From Candidatus Gastranaerophilales bacterium (lineage in GTDB: Bacteria > Cyanobacteriota > Vampirovibrionia > Gastranaerophilales > Gastranaerophilaceae), in assembly GCA_028693235.1 (NCBI GenBank), contig JAQUVW010000001.1, positions 408,616 through 472,615 on the forward strand: a DNA stretch of 64,000 bases, read 5' to 3'. Below the pieces are notes generated by a model that saw only the letters and a program-made list of their open reading frames with translations, did no database searches and was not told where the DNA came from. The translations under genes and the position numbers were made by a program. Of this stretch, positions 2,438 to 60,224 are shown piece after piece; the first letter of the stretch is position 1; each line of letters begins with the position of its first letter.

Positions 2438-2460
2438 AAAGAGCCTGAATAAGGCTCTTT
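2438..2460. terminator. Bidirectional intrinsic terminator
   Basis: An 8-bp perfect stem, AAAGAGCC with GGCTCTTT, encloses a 7-nt loop and has T- or A-rich flanks on both sides. It sits between the convergent transglycosylase and helicase genes, and the helicase stop codon (2459-2461) lies in its right arm. Confidence 0.8.
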
Positions 2461-4435
2461 AATCTTGATTTTCAATAATCCAATGTTCTAAAACCTCTTT
2501 ATTTATCCCGTCAAAAAATCGGGAAGGTTTAGAGAGCACCATGCTTGTAGCGTAGTCAAACATATCAATCGGATAGGTTATGTATAAGAAGGTCTTAGCC
2601 CTTGTTATTGCTACGTACATTAGGCGTAATTCTTCATCTAATTCATCTTCTGAGTTGAACGAAAAGACAGAAGGAAATCGTCCGTCAACTGCTCCAATAA
2701 TAAAGATTGCTTTGTATTCAAGACCTTTAGCACTATGAATTGTAGAAAGTGTTAAATATTCATCTTTAACGCTGCCTTCTTCAATGTCGACAACGGAGCT
2801 GTCCGGTGGCTCAAGTGCCAAATCGCTTAAAAAGTCTTCCAGACTTGTATATTTAGCAGCAAGGTATGAAAAATGTTCCAAATCTTTTAATCTTTTTGAA
2901 AAATCGTCGTATTTATCTGTCAAAATCGGCTCGTAATAGGCTAATACTTGCTCAACTATTTTAGATGGTTCGAAGATGCTATTTTGACTTTTTGCAATCA
3001 ATTCTATTAATTTTTTAATTGACTCTGAGCTTTTTGATGGAAGATAAATTTTTGATTTATCAGTATCAGGATTTGAAAGCAGTGGGATTAATTTATTTGC
3101 AGTTTGGTTTCCAATGCCGTCAAGTAAAAGCAAAATTCGGTTGTAGCTGATGATATCGGCAGGGTTAAGAATAACACGCAAATGAGCAATAACGTCTTTG
3201 ACGTGAGCTGTTTCGATAAATTTAAGTCCGCCGAATTTCTTATAAGGGATATTCCTTTTAGCGAACTCTATTTCTAGATTGTAAGTCATTCGAGCACTTC
3301 GAGCCAAAACAGCGATATCGTTAAGCGATAAGTTTTCTTCTTCGTGGAGCTCAAGTATTCTTTGGGTGATAAATTCAGCTTCTGTTTGCATGTCAGAAGA
3401 TGTTATCAAGGCAGGTTTTATGGGGTTTTCTATTGTTGAAAACAAGTTTTTTGTATATTTTTCTTTAGCTTTTTTGATGACCTCGTTTGCGAGTTCCAAT
3501 ATATTTTGCGAGCTTCTGTAATTTTGCTCAAGCTTAATTATTTTAGTGTTTTCAAAAGTTTTCGGGAAGTCCAAAATGTTTTTAAAGTTTGCACCCCTAA
3601 ATGAATAGATACTTTGAGAGTCATCACCTACAGCCATAACATTGTTGTGCTCAGAGGCTAAAAGCTTGATGATTTCAGCTTGAATAGTGTTTGTGTCTTG
3701 GTATTCATCTATCAGTATATATTTATATGTGTTAGATAATTTTTTTCTAATATTTTCATTTGAAGTCAATAAGATTTTTAAATACAATAATAAATCATCG
3801 TAATCGAGAAGAGAGTTTTTCCTTTTATACTGTGTATATTCTTGTGAAATTTCGTTTATTTTATCAACACAATGTTCAAATTGTTTGTATTCTGTTTTGA
3901 TGATTTGTTCAGCAGGCATGTCCTTGTTTATCGCTTTGGAATAGATATCAAGAATCGTATGTTTTTTGGGGAATCTTTTTTCTTGTTTCCCTATTATTTG
4001 TCCTCTTATGTGAGCGATAACATCTTCAGAGTCACTTCTGTCGAGTATTGTGAAGTTGTTTTTAAGGTCAAGAAGCGTAGAATATTTTCTTAAAATTTGG
4101 TTTGCAAAAGAGTGGAAAGTGCCACCTGCAACTTTTTCGCATCGAGAGTCAAGGATTGAAGCTGCTCGAGATAGCATTTCATCCGCTGCTTTTTTAGTGA
4201 AGGTTAGAAGCAAGATGTTTTCAGGCTTTATACCGCTTTCGATAAGCCTTGCAACTCTGTAGGTAAGAGTTTTTGTTTTCCCTGAGCCTGCACCTGCGAT
4301 TGTCAATATAGAGGCGTCTTTTTGTTTTACTGCTTCAAGTTGTGTTGGATTGAGCTCTTTTTCGTAGTCTATTTTGTATTGAATATCTGTTTTAACTTTT
4401 TTCAATACATATTTTTTTACGGTTAAATTCTCCAT
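2459..4435 (-). CDS. uvrD: UvrD/PcrA/Rep family superfamily 1A DNA helicase
   Basis: ATP-dependent 3'-5' DNA helicase acting in repair and replication restart. All SF1 motifs are visible: Q-motif and LNPTQLEAV, Walker A GAGSGKT (residues 48-54 from the chosen start), Walker B LIDEYQDTN, motif III GDDSQSIYSFRGA, motif IV QNYRSSQNIL, motif V STIHSAKGLEYKAIF and motif VI RLMYVAITRAK. At 658 residues it is somewhat shorter than typical PcrA, and I see no long C-terminal extension. The frame opens earlier with GTG at 4450, but a TATAAT box lies over that stretch, so I place the start at the ATG at 4435. It is divergent from lptB. UvrD and PcrA cannot be separated from sequence alone. Confidence 0.92.
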   Translation of the reverse strand: MENLTVKKYVLKKVKTDIQYKIDYEKELNPTQLEAVKQKDASILTIAGAGSGKTKTLTYRVARLIESGIKPENILLLTFTKKAADEMLSRAASILDSRCEKVAGGTFHSFANQILRKYSTLLDLKNNFTILDRSDSEDVIAHIRGQIIGKQEKRFPKKHTILDIYSKAINKDMPAEQIIKTEYKQFEHCVDKINEISQEYTQYKRKNSLLDYDDLLLYLKILLTSNENIRKKLSNTYKYILIDEYQDTNTIQAEIIKLLASEHNNVMAVGDDSQSIYSFRGANFKNILDFPKTFENTKIIKLEQNYRSSQNILELANEVIKKAKEKYTKNLFSTIENPIKPALITSSDMQTEAEFITQRILELHEEENLSLNDIAVLARSARMTYNLEIEFAKRNIPYKKFGGLKFIETAHVKDVIAHLRVILNPADIISYNRILLLLDGIGNQTANKLIPLLSNPDTDKSKIYLPSKSSESIKKLIELIAKSQNSIFEPSKIVEQVLAYYEPILTDKYDDFSKRLKDLEHFSYLAAKYTSLEDFLSDLALEPPDSSVVDIEEGSVKDEYLTLSTIHSAKGLEYKAIFIIGAVDGRFPSVFSFNSEDELDEELRLMYVAITRAKTFLYITYPIDMFDYATSMVLSKPSRFFDGINKEVLEHWIIENQD

Positions 4436-4441
4436 GCTATT

Positions 4442-4447
4442 ATTATA
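4442..4447 (-). promoter_or_regulatory. -10 box of the helicase gene, 6 nt from ATG
   Basis: TATAAT on the minus strand is followed by six bases (AATAGC) and then the ATG. Transcription would be expected to begin at the start codon itself, giving a leaderless mRNA. I see no convincing -35. Confidence 0.5.
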
Positions 4448-11622: not shown

Positions 11623-11819
11623 ATTTTCCTGCCATAAAGTACAAACTAATAAAGATAATCAAGTATTGTAATTGCCTGATTTTCTTGTTTTGTAAACATA
11701 TTTTTACACTTTTTTGCAGAACTCAAAATTATATATCTTTTGTCAAAGTCGAATAAATTATGCAAATAAGCAGGTTAGCCTCAAATTGCCCCATTTAAAA
11801 ACACTAAATCAATAAAAAG

Positions 11820-12152
11820 AAAAGCAGCTCATAAGCCGAGTTCTGTTTCTAGATAATCATCTGTCTCGACGCCAAGTTGCCTTGACGCTCAAGCGATTTT
11901 TCAAAAGATGGCGGGTCACCTTAACCTTTTAGTCAATCTTGCATCCAATCGGGGTTTACCGAGCCGATATTTCTCAATACCGCTGGTAGTCTTTTACACT
12001 ACCGTTGCACCTGAACCTTAAATGAATAAGGTTGTTTACTTTTCTGTGGCACTAGCCTGACGATTGCTCGTACCGGACGTTATCCGGCGATTTGCCCTAA
12101 GATGCTCGGACTTTCCTCATGACAAATGTCACGCGATTATCCGGCTGCTTTT
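11820..12152 (-). ncRNA. rnpB: RNase P RNA (bacterial type A-like)
   Basis: Catalytic RNA of ribonuclease P, which matures tRNA 5' ends. On the minus strand the universally conserved GAGGAAAGTCCGAGCATC lies near the 5' end, and the ends pair as P1 (AAAAGCAGC with GCTGCTTTT). The conserved 3' part, with CAGAACTCGGCTTATGAGC, is also present. The length of about 333 nt is normal. The boundaries are set by the P1 helix and could be off by a few bases. Confidence 0.95.
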
Positions 12153-16227: not shown

Positions 16228-17082
16228 TTAACCTTTCCAAGAAATTCCCCAGTGTAATTTTTCTCTTAAAATTGAATAAAAACCGTTATGCTCAATGTTT
16301 AAAAGCAGTAATTTTGCTTTAAATTTATTTTGTTTAATGATAATTTTATCAGAAGATGAAATGTTCATAACGGATTGTCCGTCAGCTGCGATTTTTAAGC
16401 GTGGTCTTGATTGGCAAGTTGTTATTTGAATTTTTTCTGTTGCAGGAACCACCAATGGTCTTGCATTCATAGTGTGAGGGCAAATAGGGACAATAACTAT
16501 AGCCTCCAAACTTGGAACTAAAATAGGGCCTCCTGCGGATAATGTGTAAGCTGTAGACCCAGTAGGCGTTGCGACAATGAGCCCATCAGCTAAATAATCA
16601 CAAACTATTTTGTCGTTGATATGAACATAAAGTCTTGAGGTTCTGGAAAAACTATCTCCTTTTATCACTATGTCATTAAGTGCTGAAAGCTTGCCGTCTA
16701 GTGCACTTAGCATTAATCTTTCTTCGATTTTAAATTGACCTTCAATAATTTTTTCAATGGCAAATTCAATATTATCAGGTTTTGCTTGGGATAAAAATCC
16801 TAATCTACCTAAATTTATACCGAAAACAGGTGTCGAAAATTGGCTATAAAACCTTGCCGCTCTTAGAATTGTACCGTCACCACCGACAACAATTGCAAAG
16901 GTCGTTTTCGGGTCTAAACGGTCTGTTGTGAATACTTTTGATTTTAGCCCTCTGTTGTCCAATGATTTTCTTATGATTTTTATTGTATCTTGAGATTTGA
17001 GATTGTCTGAATTGTAGACAATGCCAATATGTTCAAGAGAAATTTTTTCATCATGTATTGATTTTATAATCGCATTTTCCAT
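16228..17082 (-). CDS. nadK: NAD kinase
   Basis: Phosphorylates NAD to NADP. The 284 residues contain the GGDGTILRAARF motif (catalytic Asp), GINLGRLGFLSQ, the conserved NDIVI, and GSTAYTLSAGGPI in the C-terminal beta-sandwich domain. The open frame extends 15 bases further to a TTG, but a TATAAT box covers that extension, so I choose the ATG at 17082. It would be translated from a leaderless message. First gene of the nadK-recN unit. Confidence 0.95.
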   Translation of the reverse strand: MENAIIKSIHDEKISLEHIGIVYNSDNLKSQDTIKIIRKSLDNRGLKSKVFTTDRLDPKTTFAIVVGGDGTILRAARFYSQFSTPVFGINLGRLGFLSQAKPDNIEFAIEKIIEGQFKIEERLMLSALDGKLSALNDIVIKGDSFSRTSRLYVHINDKIVCDYLADGLIVATPTGSTAYTLSAGGPILVPSLEAIVIVPICPHTMNARPLVVPATEKIQITTCQSRPRLKIAADGQSVMNISSSDKIIIKQNKFKAKLLLLNIEHNGFYSILREKLHWGISWKG

Positions 17083-17088
17083 AAGCAA

Positions 17089-17118
17089 ATTATACAATAA
17101 ATTCTATACGTTAGGCAA
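17089..17118 (-). promoter_or_regulatory. nadK promoter, start codon at +1
   Basis: -35 TTGCCT (17118-17113), an 18-nt spacer and -10 TATAAT (17094-17089), then six bases and the ATG. This predicts a leaderless nadK-recN mRNA. Confidence 0.55.
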
Positions 17119-21184: not shown

Positions 21185-21213
21185 TTGAAAAAAAGCTATT
21201 ATGTTTGTATAAA
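21185..21213 (+). promoter_or_regulatory. Promoter of the GNAT-like gene
   Basis: TTGAAA (-35) at 21185-21190, a 17-nt spacer and TATAAA (-10) at 21208-21213, nine bases before the ATG. The GGGG between box and ATG resembles an SD but would lie upstream of the likely +1, so the message would have at most about 3 nt of leader. Confidence 0.5.
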
Positions 21214-21222
21214 GGGGCTTTT

Positions 21223-22257
21223 ATGGCGAAATTAAAAAAGTTAGGCTTAATTGATATGGTGGAAATACATAAAATGATGTCTATGGTGGCATCTGGTGAT
21301 TTCCCTTCGTTTTCTGAATTGCTGCTTTTATCCCCTTTTATATTTTTTCAGAGCTTTTTGCCCTTGAAAATGAGAAAACTCCCGGAATCCTTTGTTTCAA
21401 GAGAAAATAAGGTGCTAAACGGCATGATTTCTGTTCAATCTGCCCCGGGGAATCCTTATAAGTGGAATATTAAAAACCTCTTTTTAGCAAAAAATTCGTT
21501 TGCAGCAGGTCGCCAACTTGTCGATTATGTGCTTGCCAGATTTGGTGCAATGGGGGCTAACACCTTTAGAGTTACGGTTTCTGATTCTAATGAAGAACTT
21601 TTGGATTTGTTTTCAAAAGGGTGTGGGTTTAGATTGTGCTCCCATGAATCTTTGTGGAAAATGAATGAATATGTCATCTCCAAAACACCTACAAATGGTG
21701 ACTTCTTTAGACCTTTCAGAAATGCTGACGCAAAAGAAGTCTGCGAGCTATATAATGACGCAATTTTCCCTCATTTTAGATATTCTTTAGCCAGAGTTAA
21801 ACAAGAATTTTATGATGTTTTCTTTCAAGGTTTATCTAAAACCAGTTATTTTAAGTATCTTTTATGCGACGCAAAAACAAAACGGATTAAAGGTATTATT
21901 CAGTTTCAAACAGAAGATAATGAAAATTTCTTTCTGGATATCGTTTTGCCGGCTCCTTATGAAGAAAATTATCCCGATGCTTTGAATTTTTCAATTTCTC
22001 AAATATCTCGCAGGAAAAAGAAATTCAATTTGTTTATTCAAAATCGTAAATATATGATGACTTCTAAAAAATATGAAGAATTCCTCAAAGAACACAACTT
22101 CTCCTGTTTGCAAAACAATGTTGTACTTGTCAAAGATTTCTTTAAAACTATTAAACAAGAAGAAAAAATTATCAAACCAGCTATCGCATTTAGTGAAATA
22201 AAAGGTAAGCCTGCGTTTGATGCTGTTGAAGAAAAATCTTGTAAAATTCATTCGTAG
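21223..22257 (+). CDS. GNAT-fold acetyltransferase-like protein
   Basis: 344 residues. The N-terminal half resembles a GNAT domain: LNGMISVQSAPGNPYKWNIKNLFL, then AGRQLVDYVLARFGAMGANTFRVTV and LLDLFSKGCGFRLCSHESLWKM (the usual order of beta4, beta5 and alpha4). A second divergent half follows (RPFRNADAKEVCELYNDAIFPHF), so it may be a tandem GNAT. The frame could start 18 bases earlier, but those bases overlap the -10 box. The substrate is unknown and the acetyl-CoA-binding Q/R-x-x-G-x-G/A is degenerate. Confidence 0.6.
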   Translation: MAKLKKLGLIDMVEIHKMMSMVASGDFPSFSELLLLSPFIFFQSFLPLKMRKLPESFVSRENKVLNGMISVQSAPGNPYKWNIKNLFLAKNSFAAGRQLVDYVLARFGAMGANTFRVTVSDSNEELLDLFSKGCGFRLCSHESLWKMNEYVISKTPTNGDFFRPFRNADAKEVCELYNDAIFPHFRYSLARVKQEFYDVFFQGLSKTSYFKYLLCDAKTKRIKGIIQFQTEDNENFFLDIVLPAPYEENYPDALNFSISQISRRKKKFNLFIQNRKYMMTSKKYEEFLKEHNFSCLQNNVVLVKDFFKTIKQEEKIIKPAIAFSEIKGKPAFDAVEEKSCKIHS

Positions 22258-22282: not shown

Positions 22283-22288
22283 TATAAT
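22283..22288 (+). promoter_or_regulatory. -10 box of proB, 6 nt from ATG
   Basis: TATAAT is followed by CACCTT and then the ATG. The upstream hexamer TTTAAT at 22260-22265 (17-nt spacer) is a weak -35. Predicts a leaderless proBA mRNA. Confidence 0.5.
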
Positions 22289-22294
22289 CACCTT

Positions 22295-23431
22295 ATGAAT
22301 GAAATTAAAAACGCAAAAAGACTTGTATTCAAATTCGGCACAAATGTGTTAAGAAATGAAGATAAAGAAATCTCTCTATCTCGTATTTATTCTTTTGTGG
22401 AAGATATCGCCAAACTCCATAAACAGGGTAAAGAAATTATTATTGTCACATCAGGGGCTGTTGGATTAGGTGCTAAAAAAGTAGGCGTCGATGCTTCTGA
22501 TAATATAATTTTAAAACAAGCCTGTGCTGCAATCGGACAAGGTCAACTTATGTCTATTTATGAGCACGGTTTTGATAAGTATTCTATCAATACGGCTCAA
22601 ATCCTTTTGACAGAAAGTGACTTTGACCAAAGAATTAAATATCTTAATTTAAGCAGTGTTTTGAATGAATTGTTGAATTTAAAAGTAATTCCTATCATTA
22701 ATCAAAACGACACTGTTTCAACCGAGGAGCTTGAAGAATCTATTCACAATACAATAAAAGTTTCTTTCTCTGATAATGACAAACTTTCAGCATTAGTCGC
22801 AAGCAAACTTGATGCGGATTTGCTTGTTATTCTATCTGATATTGACGGGCTTTTTGATGACAATCCGAAAGAAAATCCAAATGCAAAATTAATCCACAAA
22901 GTTGACAAGGTTGATGAAAGTATTGAAAAATATGGTCTAAATCCGTCAAAGGGCGGTCGAGGCGGTATGAAAACCAAGCTGGAAGCCGCTAAAGTCGTGA
23001 CTCGCTCAGGTGGATATGTGGTTATTGCAAACGGTACCGTCCCGCAAATTATTAAAAAAGTTTTCAATGAAAAAGAAGTAGGAACTTTGTTCTTGCCTTC
23101 TGACCAACTTTCTGAAAAACGTCGCTGGATTGGTTATGCAACAAATATCACAGGGCAAATAGTTGTTAATAAAGGTGCAAAAAAAGCACTTTTGGAACAA
23201 GAATCAAGCCTCTTGTCTATCGGTATTGTTGACATAAACGGTGATTTCCTAAAGGGTGATGTTATAAGTATTCTTGATGAAAATAACCAAGAAATTGCTC
23301 GAGGGATTGCGAATTACAACTGCAAAGATTGCAAAAAAATTCAAGGTTTACATTCTGACAAAATTTTAGATACTTTGGGTTTTAAAAACTATGATGCGGT
23401 TATTACCCGTGACAATATTGTTATACTTTAA
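22295..23431 (+). CDS. proB: Glutamate 5-kinase
   Basis: First step of proline synthesis, making glutamyl 5-phosphate. The 378 residues include the amino-acid kinase core KRLVFKFGTNVL, VTSGAVGLGAKKVG, NQNDTVSTEE, FSDNDKLSALVA, LSDIDGLFDDNP and GRGGMKTKLEAAK. A C-terminal PUA domain follows (from about 280; GQIVVNKGAKKALLEQ, ARGIANY). The length matches the PUA-containing form. It is followed by proA 2 nt later. No SD; see the -10 box directly upstream. Confidence 0.97.
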   Translation: MNEIKNAKRLVFKFGTNVLRNEDKEISLSRIYSFVEDIAKLHKQGKEIIIVTSGAVGLGAKKVGVDASDNIILKQACAAIGQGQLMSIYEHGFDKYSINTAQILLTESDFDQRIKYLNLSSVLNELLNLKVIPIINQNDTVSTEELEESIHNTIKVSFSDNDKLSALVASKLDADLLVILSDIDGLFDDNPKENPNAKLIHKVDKVDESIEKYGLNPSKGGRGGMKTKLEAAKVVTRSGGYVVIANGTVPQIIKKVFNEKEVGTLFLPSDQLSEKRRWIGYATNITGQIVVNKGAKKALLEQESSLLSIGIVDINGDFLKGDVISILDENNQEIARGIANYNCKDCKKIQGLHSDKILDTLGFKNYDAVITRDNIVIL

Positions 23432-28342: not shown

Positions 28343-28351
28343 TGTTATAAT
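28343..28351 (+). promoter_or_regulatory. Extended -10 promoter of the membrane protein-miaA pair
   Basis: TG-n-TATAAT, nine bases before the ATG at 28361. The expected +1 is an A three bases before the start codon. No good -35, which is acceptable for an extended -10. Confidence 0.45.
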
Positions 28352-36260: not shown

Positions 36261-36290
36261 TTTACTTTTCGGGCTGATTTGTGCTATCCT
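36261..36290 (+). promoter_or_regulatory. Promoter of the PadR-like gene, start codon at +1
   Basis: TTTACT (-35), an 18-nt spacer and extended -10 TGCTATCCT, then six bases and the ATG at 36297. Predicts a leaderless mRNA. Confidence 0.45.
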
Positions 36291-36296
36291 GTCTTT

Positions 36297-36815
36297 ATGA
36301 TTGAAATTCTTATTCTGTATATTATTTATAATCGTGAAAAGACTATCTATTCTATTAGAAAAGAAATTATAGATAGATTCGGAAATTTTACAAAACCAAG
36401 CTTGGGGACTATTCACCCTGCTCTTAAACGTTTAAGAGCTAAAAATGCTGTTTCTGTTTCTGACAAAATGTCAGAAGGCGGTAAAAAATCAAGCTATTAT
36501 ATTATTACACAAGACGGAAAAAAACTCTTTAGAGAATTGTTTAAACACGATTGCAGTACAAACCCATGCCTGTTTTATGCTCAAATTCAAGCTCGCTTTG
36601 CGACGATTGGACTTTTAGCCAAAGAAGAACGTAATGAGTTTTTAGACGGCATGATTACTGTGATTGACAGATATAACCTACTTAATGAAAATAAGTTGCT
36701 TGATGAATATATCGGTTTTGATTTTTATCAAAAAGAACTCGTTAAAAAAACGTTGGCAGAAGCCCAAACTCTCAAAAATTACGCTCTGATGCTAAAGGAA
36801 CACAATGAGCGGTAA
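36297..36815 (+). CDS. PadR family transcriptional regulator
   Basis: 172 residues. The N-terminal winged helix reads LILYIIYNREKTIYSIRKEI, then PSLGTIHPALKRLRAKNAVSV and the wing KKSSYYIITQDGKKLFREL, typical of PadR. A helical C-terminal part carries the dimerisation region. The frame is open 18 bases earlier, but those bases cover the -10 box. It overlaps the next gene by 11 bases, so regulator and radical SAM protein are co-expressed. Ligand unknown. Confidence 0.85.
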   Translation: MIEILILYIIYNREKTIYSIRKEIIDRFGNFTKPSLGTIHPALKRLRAKNAVSVSDKMSEGGKKSSYYIITQDGKKLFRELFKHDCSTNPCLFYAQIQARFATIGLLAKEERNEFLDGMITVIDRYNLLNENKLLDEYIGFDFYQKELVKKTLAEAQTLKNYALMLKEHNER

Positions 36816-46588: not shown

Positions 46589-46597
46589 ATGGTAGCA
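46589..46597 (-). promoter_or_regulatory. Extended -10 of the MATE gene, 6 nt from ATG
   Basis: TGCTACCAT on the minus strand, then TTTGTA and the ATG. Same geometry as uvrD, nadK and proB, without a clear -35. Confidence 0.4.
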
Positions 46598-47932: not shown

Positions 47933-49816
47933 TTAATTAATTGAAACGTAACTGGTGATTTTTTCGTACCCTGAATCTCCAGGGTGGTAAGTTCTTTCAG
48001 CTACAGTGTTGCTTGTGTTACCTTCAATCGTATGGACAGCGGTGATATTTCCTGATGAATCACGTTCAACGCTGGTAACAAGCCCTGTATGAGATGCTCC
48101 GTTGTTCTTTTGTATCATAACTTGACCTGCCTCAACGTCATTTTTACCCACTGTTCTTCCGTTGTTTTTGCCCCACTCTTGCAAGCCTGAAACGGATGCA
48201 GAACCAAATCCTTCTGGCAATTTGTCACCGTAGGTTTCTTTTGCAACGTATGAAACGAAGTCTGCACACCAAGCTTCTGTACGTCCGTTTGTGAATAGTT
48301 TGTATGAACCGTTTGCTTCGTTGTAGCCCAAATATTTTTTTGCATTTTCAATCAATTCTTCTGATGAAGTTGTTGATTCTTTTTTTGTGATTTGGGTATT
48401 GATATCGTTGAGTGCGTCTTTTTTCTCATCAAGTTTTGTTTGACTCGTTTCTAAAGTTTCTTTTGCTTTGTCAAGGTCGCTTTGGGCTGTGTTTTTAGCC
48501 TCTTGAGCTTTGTCGTATTTTGCTTTTATGTCATTGAAATTTTTAATTGCAGTTTGTGTTAATGGATTAGTGCTGTTCAATGCCAAAGAAGTTGCACTTT
48601 TTTGTTTTTCGCTTAATAAGTTATTTTTTTCGGTTTCTATTGTTTTTTGAGTTTCTTTTAGCTTATCAAGTTCGCTTTTCAATGTTTCTTGTTTTTTAGT
48701 TAATTCGTCTCTTTTTTTAACAAGTTCCTCACGTTCTTGTTTTGCTTGAGCCAAAGCTGCTTGTTTTTGAGTTAGTTCAGCGGTTGCAGATTCTTTATCT
48801 GAACCTTCTTTTGAGTCTGATTTTTGAGAGTTTAATTTTGACACAGCAGATTCTAAGTCCGCGATTGATGAATCTTTGTCCGCAATGTCTGTTCTTGCTT
48901 TATCTAAGTTTGAATCATTTTCAGAAATTGCAGATTCTTTTTCAGAAATTGCTTTGTCGTTTTCAGTCTTCTTTTTATCATTTTCAGCTATTTCTTTGTC
49001 AGTTTTTGCAAATTCTTCTTTTTTTGTACTGTCAATTGTGTTGTCGGCTTCAACAGCTTTTGATAAAGCTGAATCCTTACCGTTCATTTGCTTTTCAATA
49101 TCTTCATATTCTTTTTCTGCTGTTTCAAGAGCTTTTTGTTTAGTTTCAACGTCTGTTTTAGCTGTTTTAACCTCTGATTCTGCAGTTTTTATATCATTTT
49201 CAACAGTTGATTTTTCTGATTTTAATTCTTCAAGATTCATTCCTGAATACTTGTTGCCGTCAGTTGCATCAGAGCCTTCTGTTGAGCTGGCTCCAGAGGT
49301 GCCGTTGTTTCCGTAAACTTGATTTGCACTTGAACCAGATGGTGCACTGTATCCGCCGGAGGCAGGCATGTTGTAATAGTCATTACCTGTTGGTAATGTT
49401 GCGTTTAGTGCATCTTCAACATTTGGTGCTTCTATATTTAATGCGTCAAGTGCTTTTGAAATTACGTCGTGTAAAACAACTTTAAGTTCTTGTGTGGAAA
49501 ATCCTTTTTTGTCTGAATCTAAGCCGGCAACTTTAGAAAGCTCATTGTCATCGAGTTTTCCGTCGTTGTTTGTATCTATCGCACTAAACACATCATCAGT
49601 GCCTATATCTTTAATATTTTGATAAAATATTGAGTCCGATGCTTTCTCGCTGCTTGATTTATCTACAAGCTTAGAAAATTCATCACTTGTCATTCCTGAA
49701 AAGATATTAATATCTACGTTAGATTTGTCAGTTGATGTCTTTTTAATGCTGTCGGTTGCATTTTGAATATCTTCCAGTGTTTGTAATTTTGTTAATTTTA
49801 GTTTATCCAATGACAT
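47933..49816 (-). CDS. EF-hand, coiled-coil and CHAP-domain protein (long paralogue)
   Basis: 627 residues. The N-terminal conserved part (about 1-130) has one clear EF-hand DTNNDGKLDDNE (81-92) and a degenerate second. A Ser/Gly/Ala-rich linker follows, then a coiled coil (about 190-490). The C-terminal CHAP domain has Cys517 in WCADFVSYVAK, His576 in GASHTG and IEGNT. CHAP domains are amidases or endopeptidases of peptidoglycan. No Sec signal peptide is visible, so the export route is unknown. A TGAGGAT SD lies before the ATG. A shorter paralogue lies 113 nt upstream on the same strand. Confidence 0.87.
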   Translation of the reverse strand: MSLDKLKLTKLQTLEDIQNATDSIKKTSTDKSNVDINIFSGMTSDEFSKLVDKSSSEKASDSIFYQNIKDIGTDDVFSAIDTNNDGKLDDNELSKVAGLDSDKKGFSTQELKVVLHDVISKALDALNIEAPNVEDALNATLPTGNDYYNMPASGGYSAPSGSSANQVYGNNGTSGASSTEGSDATDGNKYSGMNLEELKSEKSTVENDIKTAESEVKTAKTDVETKQKALETAEKEYEDIEKQMNGKDSALSKAVEADNTIDSTKKEEFAKTDKEIAENDKKKTENDKAISEKESAISENDSNLDKARTDIADKDSSIADLESAVSKLNSQKSDSKEGSDKESATAELTQKQAALAQAKQEREELVKKRDELTKKQETLKSELDKLKETQKTIETEKNNLLSEKQKSATSLALNSTNPLTQTAIKNFNDIKAKYDKAQEAKNTAQSDLDKAKETLETSQTKLDEKKDALNDINTQITKKESTTSSEELIENAKKYLGYNEANGSYKLFTNGRTEAWCADFVSYVAKETYGDKLPEGFGSASVSGLQEWGKNNGRTVGKNDVEAGQVMIQKNNGASHTGLVTSVERDSSGNITAVHTIEGNTSNTVAERTYHPGDSGYEKITSYVSIN

Positions 49817-49929: not shown

Positions 49930-50931
49930 TTATGCTATGCTTACGAAGCAAGTTATCTTGTTGAAGCCGGAACTTCCTCTTTGGTAAGTTCTTTCAGCTA
50001 CAGTGTCGCTTGTGTTTCCTTCTATAGTGTGGATTGCAACTACGTTTCCTGATGAATCTCTGTCTACTTTTGTAACTAAGCCTGTGTGAGATGCCCCATT
50101 ATTTTTTTGAATCATGACTTGACCTGCTTGAACGTTATTTACAGCTACGGTTTTGCCGTTTCTTTTACCCCAGTTCCATAGTTCTGAAACAGATGGAGAG
50201 CCAAATCCTGAAGGTAGGCTACCACCATACGTTTGTTTTGCGATATATGTTACAAAGTCTGCACACCAGTGTTCAACTCTGCCATTTGTAAATAGTTTGT
50301 ATGAGCCGTTAGCTTCATTGTAGCCCAAGTATTTTCTTGCGTTAGCGATTAATGCAGCAGCTTTGCCGGTTGCAGAAGTGCTTGATGATACTGTTTGTCC
50401 ACCTTGAGCTCCTGAAGATGAGTATGAGCCGTTTGATGTTGAGCTTGATTTTGCTGAATTTATAAATGAGCGAATTTCGTTCATTCCTTCTTCTAATTGT
50501 TTTGCGAATGATTTTTTCCCTGTGCTTTTTGTTGAGCTGCTTGAAGATGATTTTGCAGGTTTATATGAGTCAAGTGCTTTGCCGATTACATCGTGGAGTG
50601 CTATTTTTAGCTCTGTGCCGTTTAGAGAATCTGATTTTTTATCTTTTCCGCTATATTTAGAAATTTCTGATTGAGATAATTTTCCGTCATTGTTTGAGTC
50701 AAGGGCTGTAAAAACATTATCAGCTCCAACTGCTTTTATATTTTGGTAAAAAATTGATTGTGAATTTGAGCCTTTTGCGTTTTTCTTAACTAAGCTGTTA
50801 AATTTGCTTTTAGTTAATCCTGAGAAAATATCAGTATCGATTTCAGCATCTGTAGCTTTTAATGAATCAGATGCTTTGTTGATATCTTCAAGTGTTTTCA
50901 AATTCGTCAATGGAATTTTATTCAATGACAT
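49930..50931 (-). CDS. EF-hand and CHAP-domain protein (short paralogue)
   Basis: 333 residues. The N-terminal half is closely similar to the long paralogue (LTNLKTLEDINKASDSL and EF-hand DSNNDGKLSQSE), then a Ser-rich linker. The CHAP domain has Cys223 in WCADFVTYIAK and His282 in GASHTG. The last 111 residues align with the long paralogue without gaps. The long coiled coil is absent. No signal peptide. A purine-rich AGAGGT/AAGAAGAG region provides the SD. Likely a peptidoglycan hydrolase, perhaps Ca2+-dependent. Confidence 0.87.
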   Translation of the reverse strand: MSLNKIPLTNLKTLEDINKASDSLKATDAEIDTDIFSGLTKSKFNSLVKKNAKGSNSQSIFYQNIKAVGADNVFTALDSNNDGKLSQSEISKYSGKDKKSDSLNGTELKIALHDVIGKALDSYKPAKSSSSSSTKSTGKKSFAKQLEEGMNEIRSFINSAKSSSTSNGSYSSSGAQGGQTVSSSTSATGKAAALIANARKYLGYNEANGSYKLFTNGRVEHWCADFVTYIAKQTYGGSLPSGFGSPSVSELWNWGKRNGKTVAVNNVQAGQVMIQKNNGASHTGLVTKVDRDSSGNVVAIHTIEGNTSDTVAERTYQRGSSGFNKITCFVSIA

Positions 50932-59615: not shown

Positions 59616-59634
59616 TTTGTTTATCAAATTTCTT

Positions 59635-59665
59635 AAAAGCCTCAATTTTATATTGGGGCTTTTTT
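59635..59665 (+). terminator. Intrinsic terminator of the phosphorylase gene
   Basis: AAAAGCCTCAA pairs with TTGGGGCTTTT (one G-U) around a TTTTATA loop, followed by T's. The -10 box of the next gene starts in its T-tail. Confidence 0.85.
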
Positions 59666-59673
59666 GTTATAAT
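59665..59673 (+). promoter_or_regulatory. Extended -10 of the cyclo-ligase gene
   Basis: TGTTATAAT directly after the terminator, eight bases before the ATG. The expected +1 lies within about 3 nt of the start codon, and any -35 would fall in the terminator stem. Confidence 0.45.
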
Positions 59674-59681
59674 ATGAAATT

Positions 59682-60224
59682 ATGCAAGAAAAACTTTTGT
59701 TAAGAAAAAAAGCTAAAAATATCCGTTCAGGACTGGATATAGTTTCAATCAGCGAAAAAATTGTCAATAACCTCTTTGGTTTAGAATGTTTTATTAGTGC
59801 AAAAAATATATTTTGTTATAACTCTTTTGGCAATGAGGTTATAACTCAACAAATTTTAAACATTGCTGAGAAAAATATATACATACCGAGGGTTCGGGGT
59901 GATTTGATGGAAGTTTGTCCATATGAAAAAGGTCAATTTACTGTTAGTTCTTTTGGTATTTATGAGCCGACAGGAAGCCCGTTAAAAGAATTAGGTGTGC
60001 TTGATTTAATTATTATGCCTGCTCTAATGGCAGACAAAAAAGGCTATAGGTTAGGGTATGGAAAAGGCTATTACGATAGATTTGTTGCTGGTTTGCAAAA
60101 GGCTGTTCCTAAGGTGATTTTAATACCTCAAGAATTGGTTGTTGATGAATTGCCTAGGGATTGTTTTGATTGTAAGTCTGAGATTTCAGTTACTCAAAAT
60201 CGGATTTTATATTCTCAGTTATAA
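59682..60224 (+). CDS. 5-formyltetrahydrofolate cyclo-ligase family protein
   Basis: 180 residues. The start LLLRKKAKNIRSGLD and VITQQILNIA fit the family, and the ATP-site signature GYRLGYGKGYYDRF is exact. It converts 5-formyl-THF to methenyl-THF in folate recycling. Length is normal for the family. Followed by a small membrane ORF after 104 bases. Near-leaderless start. Confidence 0.9.
   Translation: MQEKLLLRKKAKNIRSGLDIVSISEKIVNNLFGLECFISAKNIFCYNSFGNEVITQQILNIAEKNIYIPRVRGDLMEVCPYEKGQFTVSSFGIYEPTGSPLKELGVLDLIIMPALMADKKGYRLGYGKGYYDRFVAGLQKAVPKVILIPQELVVDELPRDCFDCKSEISVTQNRILYSQL

Follow-up and report, generated by a model that had tools for sequence, protein, structure and literature searches.

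Candidate leaderless, AUG-specific promoters with a short fixed -10 spacing in a Gastranaerophilales genome and its relatives

The stretch of DNA analysed here (hereafter the window, 64,000 nucleotides) corresponds to C1:408616-472615 of a Gastranaerophilales genome of 2.10 Mb, assembled in 7 contigs and 98.82% complete; the lineage is a gut-dwelling, non-photosynthetic relative of cyanobacteria. An earlier note on the window had singled out eight genes in which a TATAAT-like -10 box stands within a few nucleotides of the start codon, and all eight sites were found as described, five with the box at 6 nt (three of them exact TATAAT) and three with it at 8-9 nt. The boxes, and the genes that follow several of them, are:

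22283..22288, + strand: TATAAT, -10 box of proB, 6 nt to ATG 22295
22295..23431, + strand: proB (glutamate 5-kinase), predicted leaderless; TIGR01027, 389.5 bits over the cut-off
4442..4447, - strand: TATAAT, -10 box of the uvrD-like helicase gene, 6 nt to ATG 4435
2459..4435, - strand: UvrD/PcrA-type helicase (PF00580/PF13361); start moved from GTG 4450 to ATG 4435
17089..17094, - strand: TATAAT, -10 box of nadK, 6 nt to ATG 17082
16228..17082, - strand: NAD kinase (PF01513/PF20143); start moved from TTG 17097 to ATG 17082
36282..36290, + strand: TGC TATCCT, degenerate extended -10 of the PadR gene, 6 nt to ATG 36297
36297..36815, + strand: PadR-family regulator (PF03551); start moved from TTG 36279 to ATG 36297
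46589..46594, - strand: TACCAT preceded by TGC, degenerate and weak candidate -10 of the MATE gene, 6 nt to ATG 46582
28346..28351, + strand: TATAAT, 9 nt before ATG 28361; predicted 3-nt leader (C-ATT-ATG)
59668..59673, + strand: TATAAT, 8 nt before ATG 59682 (5-formyltetrahydrofolate cyclo-ligase); putative short leader, start uncertain
21208..21213, + strand: TATAAA, 9 nt before ATG 21223; weak candidate

For the helicase gene the arrangement of box, six bases and ATG stood, while the coordinates first given for it were slightly off, the box being 4447-4442; the protein is named by type, as its NCBIfam equivalog scores fall below the cut-off. Relative to the program-made ORF list, the starts of uvrD, nadK, PadR, MATE, 28361 and 21223 all lie inward of the longest reading, as had been claimed, the shift being 5-6 codons for uvrD, nadK and PadR; the proB start is kept in relatives. 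Elsewhere in the window we observed a class A bacterial RNase P RNA (11816-12152, - strand, 241 bits) and two neighbouring genes on the - strand, 47933-49816 and 49930-50931, whose N-termini are similar by eye (MSLDKLKLTKLQTLEDI and MSLNKIPLTNLKTLEDI), which suggests a tandem duplication.

Three exact TATAAT-N6-ATG arrangements occur among the 52 ORFs of the window, where 0.24 would be expected from the other distances (Poisson P about 0.002). For a larger sample from the same genome we took the window plus 800 kb (864 kb, 41% of the genome, GC 0.339), which holds 751 ORFs with a minimum length of 100 aa. In-frame ATGs within the first 90 nt of an ORF were treated as candidate starts, and exact TATAAT boxes were tallied by how far ahead of these they lie. 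Here 27 boxes fell at 6 nt, where distances outside 5-10 average 3.44 (P about 1e-15), while single distances of 0-5 nt yielded 0-3 boxes, those of 7-12 nt 1-4, and the highest value elsewhere up to 39 was 10. The genome-wide -10-to-ATG histogram that the earlier note had named as the check able to overturn its reading thus has a sharp, ATG-specific peak at 6 nt. That the distance is 'exactly six' holds well in the source genome, where 7 nt accounts for two cases, and less well in relatives (167 loci, 1.67 Mb, 1,396 ORFs), where 96 exact boxes have the 6-nt spacing, 40 have 7 nt and 16 have 9 nt, with 2-21 at other distances; these loci share common ancestry and the counts are not independent, 66 six-nt sites remaining once similar upstreams are removed.

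The association is specific to ATG, and to ATG in its role as start: in the own-genome sample a box stands at 6 nt before just 2 of 4,244 internal ATGs, none of 194 GTG candidates and 2 of 591 TTG candidates. TATAATN10TTG was slightly in excess (7 cases); reading site by site revealed no convincing TTG-start promoter, and these cases were taken as chance or in-coding sequence. Across the whole genome TATAATN6ATG occurs 95 times and the reversed pattern, an imperfect control, 33 times, an excess of about 62 that compares with about 24 of the 751 sampled ORFs. Consensus-box leaderless genes would accordingly be a minority, about 3-4% of genes, and degenerate and 7-nt sites would raise this share. 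Since the Pfam content of the 27 sampled genes is mixed (smpB, mnmG, ribF-type, mutS2-type, ruvC, prephenate dehydrogenase, histidine kinases and a GGDEF protein), no special functional set is apparent. When start signals were learned de novo by EM, with the spacer left free between 0 and 20 nt, one class showed a -10-like motif, T at -1 (0.76) and a peak distance of 6 nt, which accounted for 0.395 of that class; the weight of this class, 0.19, was discarded, as shuffled upstreams gave 0.49 with a diffuse motif.

Several signatures of a promoter accompany the box. T occupies -1 in 60 of the 66 non-redundant six-nt sites of relatives and in 22 of the 27 own-genome sites, compared with 219/454 (48%) of other first-type genes (Fisher P=0.001) and 62/216 tightly spaced genes in the same genome. 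A match to TTGACA of at least 4/6 lies upstream of the relatives' boxes at a spacer of 16 in 10/66 and of 17 in 14/66, the other 26 spacers averaging about 3.8; the same search confined to the 27 own sites gave 2, 3 and 4 at spacers 16, 17 and 18, which is not significant. In the relatives' 9-nt class a YR step is found at -4/-3 in 12 of 16 sites (counted by eye), so that it follows the box rather than the ATG and points to a leader of about 3 nt. T is also at -1 in 10 of these 16 sites, and in so small a set the effects bound to the box and those bound to the ATG are therefore incompletely separated. We also observed by eye terminator-like hairpins with a T run directly before leaderless-type promoters, with almost no spacer between, at window positions 59620-59682 and at C1:74663, C1:158854 and C2:303156.

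Individual sites differ in how well they are conserved. Among 80 loci with proB homologues (best identity 73%), 20 have an exact TATAAT with 6-nt spacing and 22 one with 7-nt spacing, and all 42 have T at -1. Near-consensus boxes at 5-9 nt precede proB in 51 of the 59 loci in which it does not overlap the upstream gene, and in none of the 21 in which it starts inside the upstream stop; the remaining 8 of the 59 score no box, although one of them, L049, carries a box before an earlier ATG. Around the box the flanking bases change, while the ATG stays conserved together with it. All 29 PadR relatives align from ATG 36297 at offset 0; 24 carry TAnnnT at 6 nt, TGn being present in 22 of these and T at -1 likewise in 22, so that the extended -10 persists at 33-50% protein identity. 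For uvrD we used 15 orthologues at 63-77% identity, leaving out hits at 36-39% that look like paralogues: seven have TATAAT with 6-nt spacing, two have it with 7-nt spacing, and six have an exact box at neither distance. Of the 25 nadK relatives scored (4 of 29 were dropped for want of a usable ATG within reach), 7 have TATAAT 6 nt before the ATG, 3 have it at 7 nt and 1 at 5 nt. Conservation thus backs uvrD, nadK, proB and PadR as leaderless candidates.

The MATE gene, which had been grouped with these four, parted from them. TAnnnT is at 6 nt in 3 of its 28 scored relatives (1 of 29 was dropped for the same reason as in nadK), and exact TATAAT falls instead at 8 nt (2), 9 nt (6) and 10 nt (1), so the 6-nt spacing is not conserved and exact boxes cluster at 8-9 nt. 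The window's own MATE site is unproven as leaderless, or may have a very short leader; this site and that at 21223, as single weak sites, may be due to chance. Six MATE relatives (L165, L168, L170, L172, L174 and L181) have exact TATAAT at 9 nt, mostly with YR at -4/-3, and the 9-nt relatives may form a class with leaders of about 3 nt beside the strictly leaderless one.

The source genome otherwise uses SD sequences, and most of its genes are SD-led. The anti-SD GGATCACCTCCTTTCT is intact in the 16S tail, and SD-like 4-mers precede 59-61% of genes outside the box-bearing class, compared with 12% of internal ATGs. The earlier note had set genes inside operons, as often having an SD, against its listed genes; a contrast between operon-internal and first genes disappears on counting (131/216 tightly spaced downstream genes and 270/454 other first-type genes); first genes, too, therefore mostly have an SD. 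Within the box-bearing class an SD-like 4-mer was found at 2 of the 27 own sites and 1 of the 66 in relatives. We rejected this absence as independent evidence, because the -10 box sits where an SD would and the absence is partly by construction. Four of the 27 own-genome sites lie at most 25 nt from a same-strand gene, and the class appears to serve first or single genes rather than tightly coupled downstream ones.

Geometry, ATG specificity, promoter signatures and conservation are all directly visible in these genomes. The 6-nt peak, the restriction to ATG, T at -1, the -35-like element, the YR step and conservation support the leaderless reading that the earlier note proposed, and we consider it very probable that the sites give AUG-specific leaderless mRNAs, made from sigma-70-type promoters that start transcription at the A of the ATG. 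In such promoters a weak -35 would be separated by 16-17 bp from the -10, itself often TG-extended. Their -10-to-start distance would be normal, the peculiarity being that the coding sequence begins at +1, and with the predicted 5' end on the A of the start codon the product would be a 5'-AUG leaderless mRNA. As such a message begins at AUG, SD pairing would be impossible, and by analogy with other bacteria the 5' AUG may be bound by the 70S ribosome, or by the 30S subunit with initiator tRNA. The class would require ATG and would coexist with an SD-led majority read by ribosomes with an intact anti-SD.

Other explanations of the same pattern were weighed. At 34% GC both TATAAT and ATG are common, and a reader could have picked out coincidences; the background is indeed not zero (33 reversed patterns genome-wide, a mean of 3.4 per distance in the sample). 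Against this stand the 27 boxes at 6 nt where 3.44 are expected, the 2/4,244 internal ATGs, an excess in 52/52 family genomes (see below) and the conservation of sites, so that chance is scarcely credible, and for the class as a whole it is refuted. The A/T-rich hexamer might alternatively be a translation-initiation element on a longer transcript, an S1- or Bacteroidota-like non-SD site, and there is precedent in the AT-rich non-SD ribosome sites of the FCB group (PMC9581028) and in the discussion of S1 as an alternative source of such biases (PMC5397173). A ribosome site would not, however, account for a -35 partner at 16-17 bp, the TGn extension (22/24 in PadR), the use of ATG alone, the fixed distance or a YR initiator whose position shifts along with that of the box. 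It would, moreover, still be needed in the overlapping proB genes, where the box is missing, unless translation there is coupled. We regard this explanation as very improbable.

The promoters could also be real and the assumed transcription start wrong by 1-3 nt, with leaders of 1-5 nt or slippage among adjacent positions. The relatives' spacings of 7 nt (40) and 9 nt (16) speak for this, as do 28361, 59682, 21223 and the many MATE relatives at 8-10 nt, whereas sites of the 6- and 7-nt classes have an invariant T at -1 followed by A at +1 (42/42 in proB), the preferred YR start; for the class we think such an offset unlikely. A transcript might, finally, begin inside the gene and leave the counted ATG untranslated, since from general knowledge a -10 box could serve starts a few nucleotides further downstream. 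The ATG is nevertheless conserved with the box, all 29 PadR relatives align from it and GTG is without excess, and we give an internal start almost no credence. Returning to the leaderless reading, the sites are, overall, best described as predicted leaderless or nearly leaderless AUG promoters.

In leaderless mRNAs of Deinococcus and mycobacteria the -10 box lies close to the start codon at a constant spacing, and mycobacteria accept GUG leaderless starts, in which they differ from the window's family, where GTG is without excess in the family total. Zheng et al. (2011, PMC3160421) described a TANNNT some 12 bp ahead of the start codon as the -10 box of leaderless genes and reported such TA-led genes as common among Actinobacteria and in Deinococcus-Thermus. 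The box position is the same here, with the class a minority alongside SD-led genes. Many Cyanobacteria genomes, according to that survey, use neither SD-led nor leaderless genes; the window's lineage belongs to the same phylum as the photosynthetic genomes compared below and is not named in the available part of the paper. GeneMarkS-2 predicts a bacterial leaderless group for 21.6% of bacterial species, in which, as here, SD-led and leaderless genes share one genome, Cyanobacteria being given as one instance of a separate group with weak signals (PMC9581028). Another account of how initiation modes are distributed cites reports of leaderless mRNAs in Cyanobacteria too (PMC5397173), which runs counter to the contrast within the phylum described below. 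By Cappable-seq of mouse caecum, 10-15% of the TSSs of Akkermansia and Bifidobacterium coincide with a start codon, and YR at -1/+1 is universal (PMC4782308); that study is experimental and covers four species, none of the window's lineage, whereas the present case is known from sequence alone. The leaderless start is thus of a known kind in other bacteria and seems to be undescribed in the Gastranaerophilales lineage, in that the open-licence literature yielded no leaderless report for Melainabacteria, Gastranaerophilales, Sericytochromatia or Vampirovibrio, and the term did not occur among the papers listed by a broader search.

Beyond the source genome, TATAATN6ATG exceeded its reversed-pattern control in 52/52 genomes of the family (6390 vs 2097, 3.05-fold). 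The N8 spacing was near control (2975 vs 2619, 1.14-fold) and a GTG start at N6 level with it in the family total (1200 vs 1190, 1.01-fold), each over 52 family genomes in draws that overlap the N6 draw in part only; rows for f1 and f6 present in two draws were counted once. Two genomes carry an excess of TATAATN6GTG, G223 (family f1, g129; 43 vs 10) and G228 (19 vs 5), possibly marking a sublineage that accepts GUG leaderless starts. Other families of the same class also exceed control (f2, 745 vs 515; f3, 186 vs 81), and one f2 genome (G051, 229 kb) has no peak in its ORF distance counts.

Outside the class, the 47 genomes with PF00124, a photosynthetic reaction-centre family, fall below control (1323 vs 2034) and the 19 without it lie above (586 vs 340). 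The photosynthetic family f18 is itself below control (789 vs 1318, 16 genomes), and in a PF00124-positive genome of 37% GC the same ORF pipeline found no exact site at 6 nt in 279 ORFs. Among families without PF00124 the excess is clear in f12 (213 vs 55) and f20 (36 vs 1). The ORF pipeline gave 13 near-consensus sites at 6 nt and 9 at 7 nt, against a mean of 3.8, in an f12 genome, and no peak in a small 120-kb sample of an f20 genome (G174) whose genome-wide count is 30 vs 1. Because f23 and f37, likewise without PF00124, show no clear excess over control, a simple photosynthetic/non-photosynthetic split is weakened. As GC differs between the groups and the reversed-pattern control is imperfect, the phylum-wide contrast is a lead, not a demonstration. 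AUG-only leaderless initiation could, tentatively, be an old trait of the phylum, kept in non-photosynthetic lineages and lost or counter-selected toward the photosynthetic cyanobacteria. Its survival would then be strong in the window's family and perhaps extend to f12, f16, f19 and f20, a history that we hold to be possible and rather doubtful.

If the leaderless reading is true, automatic annotation that expects an SD will misplace some starts in a widespread, mostly uncultured gut group, and leaderless mRNAs are expected to respond differently to some antibiotics (PMC9581028). Comparison with the photosynthetic members, which lack the signal, would let gain or loss of leaderless translation be traced within the phylum; were the trait indeed an old one, the mode of translation initiation would have changed just when the photosynthetic class arose.
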